Below are positions 7,084 to 16,850 of a stretch of 22,188 bases of DNA, piece after piece (position 1 is the first letter of the stretch; the number at the start of each line of letters is the position of its first letter). The stretch is from positions 1-22,188 of IMG/VR virus record IMGVR_UViG_3300018022_000344; one strand, given 5' to 3'. The position numbers and the translations under genes were made by a program. Origin of the DNA: a virus. The notes beneath the pieces are model-generated. The model made no database searches. It had not been told where the DNA came from and saw only the letters and a program-made list of their open reading frames with translations.

Positions 7084-8370
7084 TTACCCCGACACGCTCG
7101 CGATCTTTGTCATGTATTGGCGAAGCTGCTCGATCGGCGAGGAGTCTTCCCCGGGAACATGCCTCGCCATCGCTTGCAGGCCGGTCCTTTCGCCAAGTTC
7201 AATCGGACTGTTGTCGAGCAGAATCTCCCCGACCGCCAATGCCAGGGAGCGATCGCCGCCGGCGTTGGCCGTGCGTGACAGCGCTATCACATTTGCCCGT
7301 CCCTCGCTGCTTTGGACGAGCGTCGCCACCAGCCTGTCCCGCGCGGCGGGCGATAAGGACCCCCGCAATACCGCGGCATCGAATTTCGCCGTCGCCGATT
7401 CCACCAGCGCGGCCTGAACCTCCTGCGGCATCACCGGCGGCAACCGCGCCGAGAGTTGCAGAATCTGCTCCCGAGCCGATGAGAGTTCCGCCTGCAATTC
7501 CTCTGACCTGTCTTCCGTGGAATCGTTTTGGTTCGGCGATTGCAGCCATTGAATGATTCGTGCCACACCGCTTTCGGCGTCAAAGTCGTCGCCGATCAGG
7601 CTGCGGAGGGTTTGAAGTTGGTCGGCCGTGCAGGGCAACACCAATTCGCTCTGGTCGCCTGCGGAGGCTTCGCCTTCCGTTGCGGAGGCTTTGCCTTCCG
7701 CATTCTGATCTGAGGATTCCGCCACCAAAACAAGTTCCGGCGATTCCTCGTCGTTTGCGGACGCTTCGCCTTCCGCTGCGGACGCTTCGCCTTCCGCTGT
7801 CGCTTCGACAAACTGATCCTGATCGGGCACGACCGGAACCGGCGTCAGCGCCAGGTGCACGATCGCTTCCCCCCACTGCCGGGCCTGGCCATCGGTGAAA
7901 TCCGGGTCGATGCCGACGGAGACGAGATTTCGCGCCGCCGTCAGGGCCGCGTCGTCTCCTATGAATTGGCACAATCCCAGCAGCCGATCATCATCCAGCT
8001 TAAATCCCTTGACGTACCCGACCACGTCGCGCGCCGCGTCGGAGTGATCGCAGTTGATGGGAATGGCGACCCCCGCAGCCAGCATCTTCTGACCGGCATC
8101 GGCCCAGCGGCCAAGGCGGTCGCGATCCACCGCCAGCGAAAACTTGCGCTTTGGATGGACATAGGCGCCGGTGTGGATCATGTCCTTCCAGAGATACGTG
8201 GCGGGTTGACCGGCAACCTCGGCCGGCAAATCGCCGACCCCGAAAGGCGAAGCCTCCGCAGCGGAAGGCGAAGCCTCCGCAGCGAAAGGCGAAGCCTCCG
8301 CAGGCGTCACCGGAGCATCGGGCGAAAGAACCGACGTGTGCAGTTTGAACGGTTTCGTGGGTTGATTCAT
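7084..8370 (-). CDS. Mu I-like prohead protease / scaffold
   Basis: A 428-aa protein with the layout of Mu gene I: an N-terminal protease domain (about residues 50-190) and a C-terminal helical scaffold region. In the protease half, GVAIPINCDHSDAARDVVGY places a His in the typical EHS/DHS position, and SVGIDPDFTDG provides the likely catalytic Ser region of this His/Ser peptidase group. The last ~190 residues are Glu/Ala-rich and helical, suitable for scaffolding before cleavage. The ATG at 8370 has no recognisable Shine-Dalgarno site. Three Ala/Glu/Ser-rich insertions, at about residues 24-44 (AEASPSAAEASPFG), 192-206 (AEGEASAAEGEASA) and 224-238, are encoded by P2 palindromes; these repeats are not expected in the family. 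It lies between portal and decoration genes. Confidence 0.82.
   Translation of the reverse strand: MNQPTKPFKLHTSVLSPDAPVTPAEASPFAAEASPSAAEASPFGVGDLPAEVAGQPATYLWKDMIHTGAYVHPKRKFSLAVDRDRLGRWADAGQKMLAAGVAIPINCDHSDAARDVVGYVKGFKLDDDRLLGLCQFIGDDAALTAARNLVSVGIDPDFTDGQARQWGEAIVHLALTPVPVVPDQDQFVEATAEGEASAAEGEASANDEESPELVLVAESSDQNAEGKASATEGEASAGDQSELVLPCTADQLQTLRSLIGDDFDAESGVARIIQWLQSPNQNDSTEDRSEELQAELSSAREQILQLSARLPPVMPQEVQAALVESATAKFDAAVLRGSLSPAARDRLVATLVQSSEGRANVIALSRTANAGGDRSLALAVGEILLDNSPIELGERTGLQAMARHVPGEDSSPIEQLRQYMTKIASVSG
7661..7700. repeat. P2 palindromic repeat, two tandem copies inside the protease gene
   Basis: GCGGAGGCTTCGCCTTCCG at 7661 and GCGGAGGCTTTGCCTTCCG at 7682, spaced exactly 21 nt, so the reading frame is kept. 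On the coding strand they specify AEGKASATEGEASA. Each unit is itself nearly self-complementary. Confidence 0.85.
7757..7796. repeat. P2 palindromic repeat, second tandem pair inside the protease gene
   Basis: GCGGACGCTTCGCCTTCCG at 7757 and again at 7778, the same 21-nt spacing as the pair at 7661. It encodes AEGEASAAEGEASA. The A-to-C variant at the sixth base is shared by both copies, suggesting tandem duplication after insertion. Confidence 0.85.
8241..8301. repeat. P2 palindromic repeat, three tandem copies in inverted orientation
   Basis: CGAAAGGCGAAGCCTCCGC at 8241, CGGAAGGCGAAGCCTCCGC at 8262 and CGAAAGGCGAAGCCTCCGC at 8283, again 21 nt apart. This is the reverse complement of the units at 7661-7796. 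The coding strand therefore reads AEASPFAAEASPSAAEASPF near the N-terminus of the protease, still open in frame. Confidence 0.85.
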
Positions 8371-8406
8371 AAAGTTTGGATTGAGTGAGAATGTTGAGCC
8401 GGCACA

Positions 8407-8494
8407 TCATTGTGCCGCGCGCGGAATCGCGTAGGGTGAGCGTACTCGCCCACCATTTGCCCTTCAACACGGCGAATCACTGTGCCGCGCGCGG
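8407..8494. repeat. 18-nt direct repeat flanking a P4 half-element at the portal 3' end
   Basis: TCATTGTGCCGCGCGCGG at 8407-8424 and TCACTGTGCCGCGCGCGG at 8477-8494, one mismatch, 70 bp apart. The second copy contains the portal stop codon and final codons. Between them, 8431-8458 carries GTAGGGTGAGCGTACTCGCC and CACCATTT, matching the left arm of the P4 element at 11399 with two mismatches. The rest of the 106-bp gap upstream of the protease gene shows nothing else I can support. Confidence 0.65.
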
Positions 8495-9751: not shown

Positions 9752-11100
9752 GGTTCCCGTTGCAATTTTGAAAACCCGATTCCCGCGCCGCCCACCCTTA
9801 CCGGCCGCTCAATCGGATATTCCCACCAGACGAAATACCGCAGCCAGGCGAGCGCGTGATACGGCTCCTGTGCCATTCCATTGCTCCCTGCCGGCGACTG
9901 ACGCAGGTCCCGGATCAACCTGATGCATTTCGGATCGATCGACAGCCGCGTTCCGCCGCCCGCCGAGCGAATGACCGCCCGCACCGCGTTCATCGTGTCC
10001 TTCACTCGCGGATTGCTCGCCGGCACATTCATCCGCGGCGAAAGATGCCCAAGCCGTTGTCTGACGATGTCCCAATCGGATTCGCTCGCATTGCTATGCC
10101 GCGCCGATCCGCTGGCGTCCCCATAAACCGCCAGGTCCCGTAAATTCCAACCCCGGACCATCGCCCTTTCCAGAAACACCTCGCACGCCGTGTCCGTATC
10201 CGCGTTCGGCAGCGAGAACTCCTCGATCACGCGTACCAGTTTCCGGTTATGCTGCAACACCCCGCTGCACATCGGATTGACGTTGAAATCCAGCGACCAG
10301 CAGATATGCAACGACGGATCGTATGCCGTCGGCTTCACGTGTATCGCCGGATCGAAATTCGCGAACGCGCTGCCGCGCGCTCCCACGAACCTCCCAAGAT
10401 ATTCCTGCTCGAAGATCAGCGGGTCCAATCGCCGACGCGCCGACTCAATCTCCTCCGGACTCAGGATGTCGCTCGACGGCCAATTGAAGCACCTCCATTC
10501 CTCATTCGCTCCGCTTTGCGCCGCGACGACCAACCCCTCGTAGATCTCCTGTCCCATCGAATCCACGTCCGGCACGCCGATCAGCCACGCCCAGCCCCGA
10601 CGATCCGCCAGCGCCGGCCGAATGTGCGCATCCCACAAAGTCGGCTTGCAATTCGCTATCTCGTCAATCACGCAGCCGTCCCACGGGCTCCCCTCAACGC
10701 GCTCCGGCCTCTCCATCCCATGCACCCAAAGGTGCGCCCCCTTCGTCGTCTCGATCCGCAAATCCGTTTCGTTAATCGAGCCGATCCAATCCTCCAGAAT
10801 CAAAGCCTTCAAGTCGTCCCAGAAAATGCGCTTCGCCTGTTCGATCGTCGGCGCCGCCGCGAAATATCGGCCCGGCTGCCCGTGCCATGTCCGCCGGAAC
10901 AAATGCTCCACCAGCCGCCGTTTCGCCAGTTCCGTCTTTCCACTGCGCCGGCCCGCCGAAACCAGCTTGAATCGCGTTTGGTCGTGCCACAGCCGCAATT
11001 GTTCCACATGCGGCCGAAGCTCAACCCACCTTGGGCTCCAATTCCGGTTCGGGCCGAGGAGTTTTGCCGGCGGTAGTAGCTCTCCCTTGTCCAAGCTCAT
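9748..11100 (-). CDS. Terminase large subunit (ATPase and nuclease)
   Basis: From ATG 11100 (GGGGA 4 nt upstream) the product is 450 aa. It motorises DNA packaging and cuts the concatemer. Walker A is SAGRRSGKT (residues 48-56), Walker B is GCVIDEI (142-148) with the catalytic Glu. The C-terminal RNase H-like nuclease shows its first Asp in CWSLDFNVNP (near 271), its second in VYGDASGSARH (near 328), and a conserved YHALAWLRYFVWW (414-426) in place of the last acidic segment. The start overlaps the upstream small-subunit-like gene by 80 nt, unusually long; an earlier ATG at 11130 lacks support and a later GTG lacks a ribosome site. It is followed by the portal with a 4-nt overlap. Confidence 0.9.
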   Translation of the reverse strand: MSLDKGELLPPAKLLGPNRNWSPRWVELRPHVEQLRLWHDQTRFKLVSAGRRSGKTELAKRRLVEHLFRRTWHGQPGRYFAAAPTIEQAKRIFWDDLKALILEDWIGSINETDLRIETTKGAHLWVHGMERPERVEGSPWDGCVIDEIANCKPTLWDAHIRPALADRRGWAWLIGVPDVDSMGQEIYEGLVVAAQSGANEEWRCFNWPSSDILSPEEIESARRRLDPLIFEQEYLGRFVGARGSAFANFDPAIHVKPTAYDPSLHICWSLDFNVNPMCSGVLQHNRKLVRVIEEFSLPNADTDTACEVFLERAMVRGWNLRDLAVYGDASGSARHSNASESDWDIVRQRLGHLSPRMNVPASNPRVKDTMNAVRAVIRSAGGGTRLSIDPKCIRLIRDLRQSPAGSNGMAQEPYHALAWLRYFVWWEYPIERPVRVGGAGIGFSKLQREP

Positions 11101-11368
11101 TTTTCCCCAACAAAGAAAGCATCGCGGCATTTCCTCCTTTCACAGCCACCTCCGTTTGTTTCCCCCGTATCAAAACCCGCCGCCCCGCCCGCGCCGCAAC
11201 CAGCACCGCTCCAAACCTCTCCTCCAAAACCACTTCGTTGATTTTCAACACCTCGCTGATATCGCGGTTCGTCGCCCCGTTAAAAGCCAGCTTGTGAATC
11301 TCCCGCCGCAACGGGTCCGAGGGATCGTTCGATTCCATCCCCGATTCTGAGTCGTCCTGCGATTTCAA
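11021..11368 (-). CDS. Terminase small subunit-like DNA-binding protein
   Basis: A 115-aa protein with an N-terminal helix-turn-helix region, HKLAFNGATNRDISEVLKIN, and the segment VLIRGKQTEVAVKGGNAAML followed by SLLGKNELGQG. That second segment resembles the KQ-x-VA-x-GN-x-ML-x-WLGKQ-LGQ motif of many phage proteins encoded just before the large terminase. It probably recognises the packaging site and loads the motor. The open frame begins with TTG at 11368, preceded by AGGTGA 4 nt upstream; an ATG at 11338 with GGGG before it is the alternative. The C-terminus is Pro/Glu/Lys-rich. It overlaps the large terminase by 80 nt, so the two are probably translated from one message. Confidence 0.7.
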   Translation of the reverse strand: MKSQDDSESGMESNDPSDPLRREIHKLAFNGATNRDISEVLKINEVVLEERFGAVLVAARAGRRVLIRGKQTEVAVKGGNAAMLSLLGKNELGQGRATTAGKTPRPEPELEPKVG

Positions 11369-11398
11369 GGTTCACCTGACCGACATATTAAAAGCGAT

Positions 11399-11470
11399 GT
11401 AGGGTGGGCGTACTCGCCCACCGTTCGACTGTCCGCGCGAGCAAACGGTGGACGATTACGCCCACCCTAC
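11399..11470. repeat. P4 element: 72-bp inverted repeat
   Basis: Two 27-nt arms: 11399-11425 (GTAGGGTGGGCGTACTCG, then CCCACCGTT) and 11444-11470 (AACGGTGGACGATTACGCC, then CACCCTAC). They are reverse complements with two mismatches and enclose an 18-nt loop. It sits in the gap upstream of the small terminase gene. Similar GTAGGGTGGG palindromes are, as I recall, common in planctomycete chromosomes; that was not checked. No transposase is nearby. Confidence 0.8.
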
Positions 11471-11474
11471 CCGA

Positions 11475-11603
11475 CTGGACGAACAGATTCCGCCGTTCAG
11501 TGACCGGACGGGAAGCGGCGCGGACCGATTCCATTTCGTGGTGCCGAACGTCGTCGGACAGCGCATCATGTATGGGGAACTGATCGGGACGGACGCGAAC
11601 TAA
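11475..11603 (+). pseudogene. Possible 3' remnant of a plus-strand gene next to P4
   Basis: This stretch has no gene on the minus strand. The plus strand carries a short open frame ending at TAA 11601-11603 that reads LDEQIPPFSDRTGSGADRFH, then VVPNVVGQRIMYGELIGTDAN-like residues. Most third codon positions are G or C, which looks like real coding sequence. There is no start codon, and going upstream the frame runs into the P4 arms. I therefore suspect the tail end of a disrupted gene. The family is unknown. Confidence is low because the fragment is only about 42 codons. Confidence 0.3.
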
Positions 11604-11617
11604 ATGGCGTTTCCGTA

Positions 11618-11857
11618 TCAGGTGCGCCCAGCGGGCGTCCCAGCGGCTGGCTTCGGATCGCTCCTTCGCTCAGGTGATACCGGCAGTGGTGCGATAGCAG
11701 GCGGCGTCGCCGGTGCGTTCAACGGCCACTCTCCACAAATAACCGTGCCGACGTTAAACGCGCCACTCGGCAATACCGAAGTGCTCAAGAGACGGTGCGG
11801 TCCATCGCGCACGACTATTGGCGCCGCCATACCGATATAGGGTTCCATCCAACTCAT
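11618..11857 (-). CDS. Hypothetical protein (79 aa)
   Basis: The ATG at 11857 has an excellent ribosome site, GGAGAGG, with 6 nt to the start, the main reason to believe this ORF. The product begins MSWMEPYIGMAAPIVVRDGP, then LPSGAFNVGTVICGEW, and ends in a Pro/Ala-rich tail. I recognise no family, signal peptide or membrane segment. It follows the serine protease gene by 119 nt. Two competing frames cover the same DNA: a basic 73-codon minus-strand frame starting one base after the protease stop (MATKNRPKHRKFKG), and a plus-strand 78-codon frame at 11604. Neither has a ribosome site. The call is uncertain. Confidence 0.4.
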   Translation of the reverse strand: MSWMEPYIGMAAPIVVRDGPHRLLSTSVLPSGAFNVGTVICGEWPLNAPATPPAIAPLPVSPERRSDPKPAAGTPAGRT

Positions 11858-11976
11858 GGTTATTCCTCTCCAATGGTATCTTACCACACGGTATTCTTCG
11901 CCGGTCCTTATATTTTTCGGAAGAATTCCCCAAACCCTTGAATTTTCTATGTTTGGGACGATTCTTCGTCGCCATT

Positions 11977-13077
11977 TTATGGCGGAATCGAAACGCCAAC
12001 CCAGCCGGATTTCTCCGGAACGATGCTTATTCTCATGTTCAAATCCTGTAGCCTAGCGCCGAAAACACTTCCACTCAACACCGATTTACTTGCGTGGCGG
12101 CGACTCTCCATTATCCCCGTCACGAACTCGAAGCGCGTCGGCGGCACCTGGTATTGTGACGCAAGCTGGAAAAACATGTTCAAGATAATCTGTGCGTCCT
12201 GCTGTGATGAGCCCGGCGGAATCGATAGCTGCGGTACCGGCGCGAACATCGCGACGCAGTTTGCGTCTTTGCGAAACAGTTCCATTGCGTTGAACGGCTC
12301 GCGGACTTTCAAATCAGACTCGATGTCCTGCCAAATAGACCAAAGTAACGCTTCAAGGTCGGCATTCTCTTCGGCGATAGGTAGCCCAACTTCAGTGGCC
12401 TCTTTTCGGCTCAGCGGATACCCATGATGAAAATATCGCGTGTTCAGTGATTCAGAAATTGTTCGTGCGCTTTGTTTGCGTTCCGCCGTATCTGGCATGT
12501 GAAGACGCAGCATCTTTTCCCCCATCGTTTTGGATAACTGAGATCCGCGCGCCGCAATAGCTATTCCCATAAAACCGACTTCCTCGCTAAACTTTTGAAA
12601 TAAATCACGAAGGGGTATCTGGTCGGTCAGGCCTACGCCGTTTCTGATGAATCTTAAAAACGCCTGAACATCCTCAGACCCAAATCGAACGCCCTTTTGA
12701 ATATTCGTAATTTGGGGATCGGTCGGCCCAAGGTTTCCGTTCGGGTGCATTACGATTTCATTCGCCCCAAGTGCTATGAGGGTCGCGGCACTGAATGCCG
12801 CCTGGGGAATCAAGATGGAGAAATTGTCCACGCGCTCGCGGATTAAGGATACGATGCGCCACGCAACGGTTCCATCTCCTCCATTGCTCACCACAAGTAA
12901 ATCAAGATCATTAGCGTTTGGATCAAGCTTTTGGAGTTGATCCAGTAACTCGGCTATTGCGTCCTGGCCGATCTGGCCTTCCGCGCCTTGCCGAATACTT
13001 GTGACGTACACGATGAGGGGCTTTTTTCTCCTCTCTTCAAGTTGCCGATATAGCTCTACCCGTTCTGGCAGCCCCAT
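11977..13077 (-). CDS. SppA/ClpP-class serine protease, SDH-type
   Basis: A 366-aa protein resembling the serine dehydrogenase proteinase (SDH_sah) group of the Clp/crotonase-fold peptidases. LVVSNGGDGTVAWRIVSLIR (about residues 61-80) matches the oxyanion-loop strand and following helix. PQAAFSAATLIALGANEIVM (91-110) holds the presumed nucleophile, Ser96, in the A-x-SAA context. HPNGNLGPTDPQI follows as in SppA-like enzymes. There is no signal peptide or membrane segment, so it should act in the cytoplasm. The ATG at 13077 has AAAGGAAA upstream; an extended open frame to 13179 is Cys/Leu-rich and unlikely. It is visibly richer in A/T than its neighbours and has 237-340 bp of non-coding DNA upstream, suggesting an acquired gene with its own promoter. 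Its substrate is unknown. Confidence 0.75.
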   Translation of the reverse strand: MGLPERVELYRQLEERRKKPLIVYVTSIRQGAEGQIGQDAIAELLDQLQKLDPNANDLDLLVVSNGGDGTVAWRIVSLIRERVDNFSILIPQAAFSAATLIALGANEIVMHPNGNLGPTDPQITNIQKGVRFGSEDVQAFLRFIRNGVGLTDQIPLRDLFQKFSEEVGFMGIAIAARGSQLSKTMGEKMLRLHMPDTAERKQSARTISESLNTRYFHHGYPLSRKEATEVGLPIAEENADLEALLWSIWQDIESDLKVREPFNAMELFRKDANCVAMFAPVPQLSIPPGSSQQDAQIILNMFFQLASQYQVPPTRFEFVTGIMESRRHASKSVLSGSVFGARLQDLNMRISIVPEKSGWVGVSIPP

Positions 13078-13416
13078 TGCTCTTTCCTTTGCTTGAGACA
13101 AACCGCAAGAATACAAAACTATTCGTCTGACGCAATGGCAATACCAAAGGCAAAGGTATAACTCCGCAATGTCCCCCAAACCCTGTCAACCAACGCCGAT
13201 TAGGAAATCCCCGTCACGACCGACCGTCATACCACCGTTGCAGGTGTGATTCAGATGGGGGAACCCGAATGAGTAAAGGGGGCTGCGGGAGACGAGAAAC
13301 CATCCGGTGTTCGCCCCTGAGGCTCAGACCCGAAATGGTCCTTATGTGTTATCTCGCCTCCCCCGCATTGCATTTCTGCATTTCGCAGGCCCCACACCGT
13401 GCCACGTCGCAATGCA
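13078..13416. other. Intergenic region between the ATPase-GNAT gene and the serine protease
   Basis: About 340 bp without a convincing gene. On the minus strand a perfect TTGACA lies at 13184-13189, but the nearest TATAAT-like box, TTATAC at 13156-13161, is 22 bp away, too far for a standard promoter. Short open frames on both strands lack ribosome sites. The AT-richer half next to the protease gene is the likeliest place for its promoter. Confidence 0.5.
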
Positions 13417-14634
13417 TCAGCAAACTCTTTCCATTTGGAAGGCACCGATTCCAAACCTCGCCGCGATGTCGTCGCGCGCCTCCCCGACATATTCAAAACT
13501 CGCGGTCAACCGCCTGCTGCTGAGCGTCTTGTCCAACGCGGCCATTCGATTGTTCTTCCGATGGCCGCGCCGAATGCGCGATGGTGATCGGCTCATTCGC
13601 CACTGCGGCGATCTCGCCCGGTGATGGATCATCGCCGGATGGCTGGTCACGCTCCTGTACGGCTTGCCCGTGGCCACAAACAGCGACGCGACAAATTCAC
13701 TCATGGCATTGCCGATGCCCACGCCCTGAAAATCCGGCAGGCAAACGCAACGATGCTCGCGCCAGCCCGATCGCACCGGATGAGGAAATGGCAAAACCGC
13801 CACGAAAGCCGCCGGCCGCTCCTCGACCAATCCCATGAAACATTGCGCCGACGGATGAAGCTTTCCACTCAGATAGTGATGACGACCGAATAGCTTCCAC
13901 GCCGATGTACCGCAGCGCACGATCTCCAAGTTGATTTCCGGCCGGTGAAAGATCAAGGAGCTGCTCTCCTCTCTCCTTTCTCCACCTCTCCTCTCTAGCC
14001 GCTGGCTCCCCATATCCAAAACCCAGTCCGGCTCAAGCCACGGAAGCACATCGTAATGGCACGTCACCGCGACGAACCTGCGGTCCGACTGGCGCACGGC
14101 CCGGCTGATTGCGCTCGAGCCGATCCGTGCCACCGTCCGATCCACAACGCTGGTGAATTCATCCACCACGGCACAGTTAGCCCCCGGCGGGGAGGCTTTG
14201 CCTTCCCCTGACTCACCGGGGGCCAATTCCGCCAGCGTCCGGGCCATGCTGACTCGGAACTGCTCGCCGTTGCTGAGAAGGTGAAACGGCCGCATCCATG
14301 CCGGCGGCGAACTAAAGCCCACGCTTCCCAGCAGCTGCGTGATGTCCCGAACGCCCATGTTCGCCGGAAAGCCGTCCAAAATGCTCTGGTCGGCGGGCCA
14401 ATCCCAATGCTGAACCATCCGATCACCGAAGGCCTGTCGCGCAACCGTTGTTTTGCCCGACCCGCTCGGCCCGACGATCACGCCGATGCTCCACGCATCC
14501 TGCAGCGACGGCAGTTCCACCGTGAAGGAGCAGTGAGATCCAGACCCCGCGGGCAGATCAAACATCCCGGCCACCTGTCGGACGCGGAAGCTGTCCCGCA
14601 GCGGACATTCAACTACAGCGTGAACAGTCGGCAT
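13417..14634 (-). CDS. ABC-type ATPase fused to a GNAT-like acyltransferase domain (COG2401-like)
   Basis: A 405-aa two-domain protein. Residues ~40-210 form an ABC ATPase: Walker A GPSGSGKT (55-62), a signature helix LLSNGEQFRVSMARTL (119-134), Walker B CAVVDEFTSVVD (154-165) and an H-loop His in VTCHYDV (193). There is no membrane domain, so it is not a transporter. A charged RRGGERREESSS linker leads to a GNAT-like domain (about 238-383) with RHHYLSGKLHPSAQCF, the acyl-CoA-loop-like LPDFQGVGIGNAMSEF (299-314) and a closing RLTASFEYVG. This matches my memory of ABC-type ATPases fused to a predicted acetyltransferase. Residues ~139-152 (GESGEGKASPPG) are an insertion encoded by nested P1/P2 palindromes. 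The ATG, with AGGGA upstream, overlaps the ParB gene by 22 nt. A role in DNA-base modification is inference. Confidence 0.75.
   Translation of the reverse strand: MPTVHAVVECPLRDSFRVRQVAGMFDLPAGSGSHCSFTVELPSLQDAWSIGVIVGPSGSGKTTVARQAFGDRMVQHWDWPADQSILDGFPANMGVRDITQLLGSVGFSSPPAWMRPFHLLSNGEQFRVSMARTLAELAPGESGEGKASPPGANCAVVDEFTSVVDRTVARIGSSAISRAVRQSDRRFVAVTCHYDVLPWLEPDWVLDMGSQRLERRGGERREESSSLIFHRPEINLEIVRCGTSAWKLFGRHHYLSGKLHPSAQCFMGLVEERPAAFVAVLPFPHPVRSGWREHRCVCLPDFQGVGIGNAMSEFVASLFVATGKPYRSVTSHPAMIHHRARSPQWRMSRSPSRIRRGHRKNNRMAALDKTLSSRRLTASFEYVGEARDDIAARFGIGAFQMERVC
14178..14224. repeat. P2 repeat nested inside a split P1 palindrome, within the ATPase gene
   Basis: Outer halves TAGCCCCCGG (14178-14187) and CACCGGGGGCC (14214-14224) match the two ends of the P1 palindrome found at 16824. 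Between them lies GGGGAGGCTTTGCCTTCCCC (14189-14208), a P2 unit. The frame stays open and adds about 14 residues between the ATPase signature helix and Walker B. Confidence 0.75.
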
Positions 14635-16467: not shown

Positions 16468-16493
16468 TAGCCCCCGGTGATTCACCGGGGGTT
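16468..16493. repeat. P1 palindrome, copy 2
   Basis: TAGCCCCCGGTGA, then TTCACCGGGGG; stem of 10 bp around a single central base. It contains the stop codon of the 109-aa structural protein gene (TGA at 16482-16484 on the minus strand). No U-tract follows on the transcript strand, so it is not a standard terminator. Confidence 0.8.
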
Positions 16494-16823: not shown

Positions 16824-16850
16824 TAGCCCCCGGTGAATCACCGGGGGCTA
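16824..16850. repeat. P1 palindrome, copy 1 (perfect)
   Basis: TAGCCCCCGGTG and CACCGGGGGCTA are exact reverse complements around a 3-nt AAT loop. It lies between the tail spike stop (16861) and the next gene's ribosome site. A stable 12-bp stem without a U-tract suggests an mRNA-stabilising or REP-like element. Confidence 0.85.

Follow-up and report, generated by a model that had tools for sequence, protein, structure and literature searches.

A palindromic repeat nested in frame within another palindrome in an ABC-type ATPase gene of a phage with probable planctomycete affinity

Rickettsia palindromic elements (RPEs) are palindromes that lie in frame in the genes of unrelated proteins, where they are probably tolerated at loops (PMC3733652, PMC10969869); the first to be described are about 150 bp long (PMC10969869). 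GTAG- and CGTC-tagged REPs are smaller palindromes of 20-40 bp with a patchy distribution across species, and are sometimes found within genes and as dimers (PMC3733652). IS1397 is reported to insert into the palindromic unit of REP/BIME sequences (title cited in PMC3116915). Intragenic palindromes, in-frame RPEs, intragenic REPs and the tolerance of loops are thus already known (PMC3733652, PMC10969869).

Here, we analyzed a 22,188-base IMG/VR virus record (the window), which carries phage head genes for a Mu-type portal, capsid protein E, a terminase and a head protease, and which probably represents a phage with planctomycete affinity. One of its genes contains a short repeat, P2, within another, P1. 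The features of this nest are as follows.

13417-14634, minus strand: phage ABC-type ATPase with a C-terminal GNAT-like acetyltransferase domain, carrier of the nest (phrog_11143)
14177-14226, minus strand: complete nest of the 21-nt P2 within the 29-nt P1, with the product LAPGES-GEGKASP-PGA; its letters are TTAGCCCCCGG (CGGGGAGGCTTTGCCTTCCCC) TGACTCACCGGGGGCCAA, the 21 nt of P2 being in brackets
14177-14187: first piece of P1, TTAGCCCCCGG
14188-14208: P2 unit, CGGGGAGGCTTTGCCTTCCCC, a clean 21-nt insertion relative to the contig of L018 and L003
14209-14226: second piece of P1, TGACTCACCGGGGGCCAA

Profile searches matched the 405-residue product to phrog_11143 (E=8.8e-95) and additionally to the acetyltransferase phrog_7693; the score for ABC_tran was 22.5 bits, slightly below the cut-off. 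Both by profile and by fold, the product resembles ABC NBDs in the PDB. Alignment showed that the Walker A motif (GPSGSGKTT), the signature (LSNGEQ), Walker B (VVDEF) and the H-loop (CHYD) are all conserved, so the catalytic motifs remain intact, as the first-pass annotation had stated. Homologues were found in 51 known phages, all below 60% identity, and in 25 out of 392 planctomycete genomes, and the same protein is encoded at 15 viral loci.

Joined together, the outer pieces of the nest restore P1 as a 29-nt palindrome, TTAGCCCCCGGTGANTCACCGGGGGYTAA. On the minus strand the nest is read in frame as LAPGES-GEGKASP-PGANC, bounded by LSNGEQFR and VVDEF, and is located after the signature helix and before Walker B. 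Sequence and translation therefore confirmed the annotated placement of a P2 unit inside P1, in frame, in the segment between the signature and Walker B, although the annotated ends (14178-14224) were off by one to two bases.

Comparison among the 15 viral loci revealed three states of the site. The empty site, with the reading AE-MP(D/E)LA-VVDEF, was present in L004, L005, L006 and L008-L012. P1 without P2 was present in L003 (AE-LAPGESPGVNCA-VVDEF) and L007 (AEGQLAPGDSPGVT-IVDEF), and P2 within P1 was found in the window only. The P1-only loci exceeded the empty site by 7 residues and the nest exceeded it by exactly 14 (19 versus 5 residues, the latter being MPDLA), of which 7 were contributed by P1 and 7 by P2; the annotated figure of about 14 added residues was thus accurate. 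The same annotation had called the region normally compact, which holds for most relatives, with their MP(D/E)LA, but not for the whole family, as the distant relatives L013-L016 carry unrelated inserts within the same ATPase loop.

The nearest relative for DNA comparison was L018, which is the same contig as L003. The window and L018 were alignable at 82-92% through most of a 14-kb stretch, with about 90% DNA identity in conserved parts. Relative to L018, the nest contained exactly one 21-nt insertion, P2, with zero bases lost. P1 in L003 was a replacement of 12 nt by 33 nt, for a net gain of 21 nt, and a second non-clean entry of P1 was seen at L018:14246, where 31 nt stand for 7 nt of the empty site in the window. 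The proposal that P2 had entered an earlier P1 insertion was hence supported by preserved stages, with the qualification that P1, found alone in L003 and L007, had not arrived by simple addition.

In a tree built without the insert region, the window and L003 were paired (85/83, moderate support), followed by L004 and L006 with empty sites, and L007 was more distant. The P1 of L007 is offset by 6 nt from the P1 position in the ATPase of the window and L003. Given its displacement and the distance of L007 in the tree, the simplest reading is that P1 was inserted into the ATPase loop twice, the P1 of L007 probably being the second, separate insertion; the alternative is one gain followed by losses. 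Comparison of the loci shows the order of events: empty site, then P1, then P2 within P1.

Both repeats recur elsewhere in the window, as the annotation had presumed, with two solo copies of P1 and seven further copies of P2.

16469-16491: solo P1 copy adjoining the start of gene MSKELKTPF; in L018, a P1 at 9676 lies close to the equivalent position
16824-16850: solo P1, a perfect 27-nt palindrome, TAGCCCCCGGTGAATCACCGGGGGCTA, near a predicted gene boundary
7084-8370, minus strand: head-maturation-protease-like gene with seven P2 copies (phrog_976, E=4.4e-06)
7659-7700 (core 7663-7699): two P2 units in tandem, 42 nt, an in-frame insertion private to the window
7759-7800 (core 7759-7795): two P2-like units, 42 nt, with a diverged version in L107 but none in L108
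8240-8302 (core 8242-8299): three P2 units in tandem, 63 nt, opposite orientation, in frame and private to the window

We observed four P1-like matches in the window, all of them belonging to the two solo copies, versus 0.21 in shuffled sequences, and none of 100 dinucleotide shuffles reached the observed count. For P2, three exact or near matches were observed versus 0.00 expected from shuffles. In the protease-like gene, the 42-nt block at 7659 and the 63-nt block at 8240 were clean additions absent in seven out of seven relatives; the block at 7759 was matched by a diverged version in the closest relative. Altogether, the eight P2 copies in the window lie in two unrelated genes and in both orientations, and differ from one another by substitutions. 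The P2 stem varies by paired change (GCGG...CCGC versus GGGG...CCCC), which keeps the hairpin.

No repeated P2 was detected in the 392 planctomycete genomes, none of which exceeded the reversed-pattern control, or in the viral contigs searched other than the window. The case for P2 mobility therefore rests on one phage. We judged 13 isolated matches to the P2 core in unrelated viral contigs to be due to chance, as no further P2 copies were present there. Two other palindromic features were noted in related phages. The nearest relative has a P2-like hairpin, GCGGAGGGCTCGCCCTTCCGC, at L018:14467-14487, which may represent a family sister to P2, and the protease-like gene of L110 combines the palindromes TCCCGCCGATTCATCGGCGGGA and CCCTCCCCCGGAGTACCAGGGAGGGGG in frame (L110:2170-2250).

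P1 has a wider range. In a scan of 84,980 species genomes, TAGCCCCCGGTGANTCACCGGGGG was found in 33 stretches, nearly all from planctomycete-labelled assemblies and in unrelated contexts; the largest share came from MAG RI_361, which is titled only 'bacterium' and was grouped with planctomycetes. Exact P1 was present in only 4 out of 392 sampled planctomycete genomes, at no more than 14 copies each, and its distribution is therefore patchy. Across contexts, the common core of P1 consists of TTAG...CTAA around the arms and a GANTC centre, in which N can be any base. GANTC is also the CcrM methylation site, a match that is possibly a coincidence. In L016, an unrelated palindrome, TGGCCCACGGCGAGTCGCCGTGGGCCA (1805-1831), lies where the ATPase gene ends and shares the GANTC centre of P1.

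Owing to its palindromy, P1 is fully open in one frame, which reads LAPG(D/E)SPGA from either strand. We found it in frame in the following planctomycete genes.

L023:5393-6490, minus strand: PheS
L027:2939-5434, minus strand: ValS, P1 placed by domain position only
L048:3-2243, minus strand: LeuS, P1 placed by domain position only

An amine oxidase gene in L044 contains two inverted P1 copies, also in frame. The PheS of L023 exceeds solved PheS structures by 17 residues precisely at P1, and the loop concerned is a hotspot whose insert differs in almost every one of 29 same-family relatives. PheS of L169 has a P1 of its own (LAPGESPGAK) at a different position of this loop, and those of L147 and L156 have a P1-like palindrome with another centre. 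With P1 in frame in several host genes, the ATPase nest belongs to a broader pattern.

No nest of P2 in P1 was found in the sampled planctomycete genomes; matches to the nest pattern in P1-rich genomes were not clean nests but mainly half a P1 fused to a complete copy. Three viral contigs with such matches (L081-L083) were inspected and did not contain P1/P2 nests. At L208:1501-1545, within an open frame of 857 residues, the P1 centre is enlarged by 15 nt, which may reflect another in-frame insertion into P1, here in a host gene.

We consider it quite likely that P1 and P2 are mobile palindromes, that P1 entered a tolerant ATPase loop and P2 later entered P1, and that selection maintained the frame. 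Gene conversion or template switching among copies already carried by the phage or prophage, in place of transposition, is a less probable explanation, and we think it unlikely overall. Conversion within the phage is a possible source of P2, in that seven other P2 and two P1 copies are present in the same 22-kb record, and we found neither a transposase link nor a target duplication. However, conversion requires flanking similarity, none of which was apparent around the three P2 insertions private to the window, and P1 is scattered through unrelated planctomycete genomes and contexts.

Slippage in an ordinary low-complexity loop, with a coincidental likeness to repeats, could explain why loop length varies among distant relatives with unrelated inserts (L013-L016) and why P2 forms tandem blocks within one gene. 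It does not fit a 29-nt palindrome, P1, that recurs at unrelated genomic sites and in other genes, nor does it fit P2, which adds exactly 21 nt, takes both orientations, lies in two unrelated genes and has a shuffle expectation of 0.00; we regard slippage as very improbable.

The insert location had been proposed for modelling, and an AlphaFold2 model of the ATPase/GNAT protein (15 sequences, mean pLDDT 78.9) placed it between the helix at residues 122-136 and the strand at 154-158, with residues 141-150 below a pLDDT of 50. The insert is thus probably a disordered surface loop. The peptide falls in a loop that follows the signature helix and precedes the Walker B strand, so that the ATPase fold and motifs survive the nest. 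Comparison of the window with L003 gave a dN/dS of 0.16 overall and about 0.19 in the ATPase part, which indicates that the gene is under purifying selection. Since the motifs are intact, the fold matches that of ABC NBDs and dN/dS is low, the nest-bearing protein is probably functional. The linker between the ATPase and GNAT parts has inserts as well: in the window, 33 inserted nt (13955-13987) whose strands show a strong purine/pyrimidine bias, and in L005 and L012 another repetitive insert.

Selection for a functional loop could account for P1 having probably entered twice in the same frame and for other phages having other inserts there. Yet the insert was modelled with low confidence and no predicted structure, most relatives lack it, and its peptides are the default reading of the palindrome; an adaptive insert therefore appears highly doubtful. 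That the nest is an artefact of metagenomic assembly, the window being an IMG/VR virus record probably assembled from mixed DNA, is extremely improbable given the intact frame, the substitutions among P2 copies and the presence of the P1 stage in two other contigs.

As the comparison shows, P1 entered the tolerant loop before the window phage and L003 diverged, with a small local loss and a gain of 7 residues. P2 entered the centre of P1 later, cleanly and in the window lineage only, adding another 7; both net lengths preserve the frame. We suggest that P1 and P2 belong to the REP/RPE/SDR type of non-autonomous mobile palindromes and that a host function copies them in trans when phage DNA is inside the cell. 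P2 would be a repeat native either to the phage or to its unsampled host. It may have landed preferentially at the hairpin centre of P1, and selection may retain only in-frame copies in surface loops. After insertion, local duplication probably expanded P2 into its tandem arrays of two and three units.

More tentatively, planctomycetes and their phages might harbour an undescribed set of tiny frame-preserving mobile palindromes that actively inserts into coding sequences, also those of essential genes, and prefers the hairpin centres of older copies, so that loops grow by stacking. If so, protein loops of planctomycetes and their phages grow through stacked palindrome insertions. The stages (empty, P1, P2 in P1) form a stepwise record of tiny palindromes enlarging a protein loop, in a phage gene rather than a host chromosome, and illustrate that tiny repeats repeatedly enter protein-coding genes without destroying them. 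A phage group with occupied and empty sites at about 90% identity also makes the movement of short elements testable.

The literature available to us, which was incomplete, contained no nested palindrome pair in a phage gene with preserved intermediates, no untagged planctomycete palindrome family in aminoacyl-tRNA synthetases and no publication that deals with intragenic palindromes of planctomycete phages; nor did we find in it an RPE nested inside a gene. We identified no mobilising enzyme: no P1 lay within about 1.5 kb of any of 30 Y1-transposase (PF01797) loci in eight P1-bearing genomes, and RAYT as the mobiliser is therefore unsupported.

GTAG-tagged REPs do occur in the window, as an inverted REPIN-like doublet, GTAGGGTGGGCG...CGCCCACCCTAC, at 11399-11470 and as a single copy at 8406-8475 in a 70-nt insertion relative to L018, with similar 30-nt stretches on either side. 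A further difference from L018 is a segment of about 2.2 kb (11055-13442), including a protease-like gene (11977-13179), that is missing at the same place in L018.

P1 shares small size, palindromy, patchiness and intragenic copies with GTAG/CGTC REPs. Its doublets in L044 and the paired palindromes about 55 nt apart in G001 look REPIN-like, but the copies in the window and at most loci are solo. The GTAG/CGTC tag is absent both from P1, which ends in TTAG/CTAA in many contexts, and from P2, which has no tag. As a full insertion sequence, IS1397 encodes a transposase; P2 enters a palindromic unit as IS1397 does but, at 21 nt, is too short for a transposase gene. Cyanobacterial small dispersed repeats (SDRs), reportedly described by Elhai and colleagues in 2008, are said to be mobile units of 21-27 nt that sometimes lie within other repeats. 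P1 and P2 resemble them in size and in the repeat-in-repeat arrangement but differ in phylum and sequence, so the likeness is a lead only. As with RPEs, in-frame palindromes with empty-site homologues were found in genes of unrelated function, namely those for the ATPase, the protease-like protein and PheS. By contrast, RPEs belong to Rickettsia and those first described measure about 150 bp, whereas P1 (29 nt) and P2 (21 nt) belong to planctomycetes and a phage and are set apart by length and phylum. Together with the in-frame P1 copies in planctomycete aminoacyl-tRNA synthetases, this extends the phenomenon beyond Rickettsia and the known tagged REPs.
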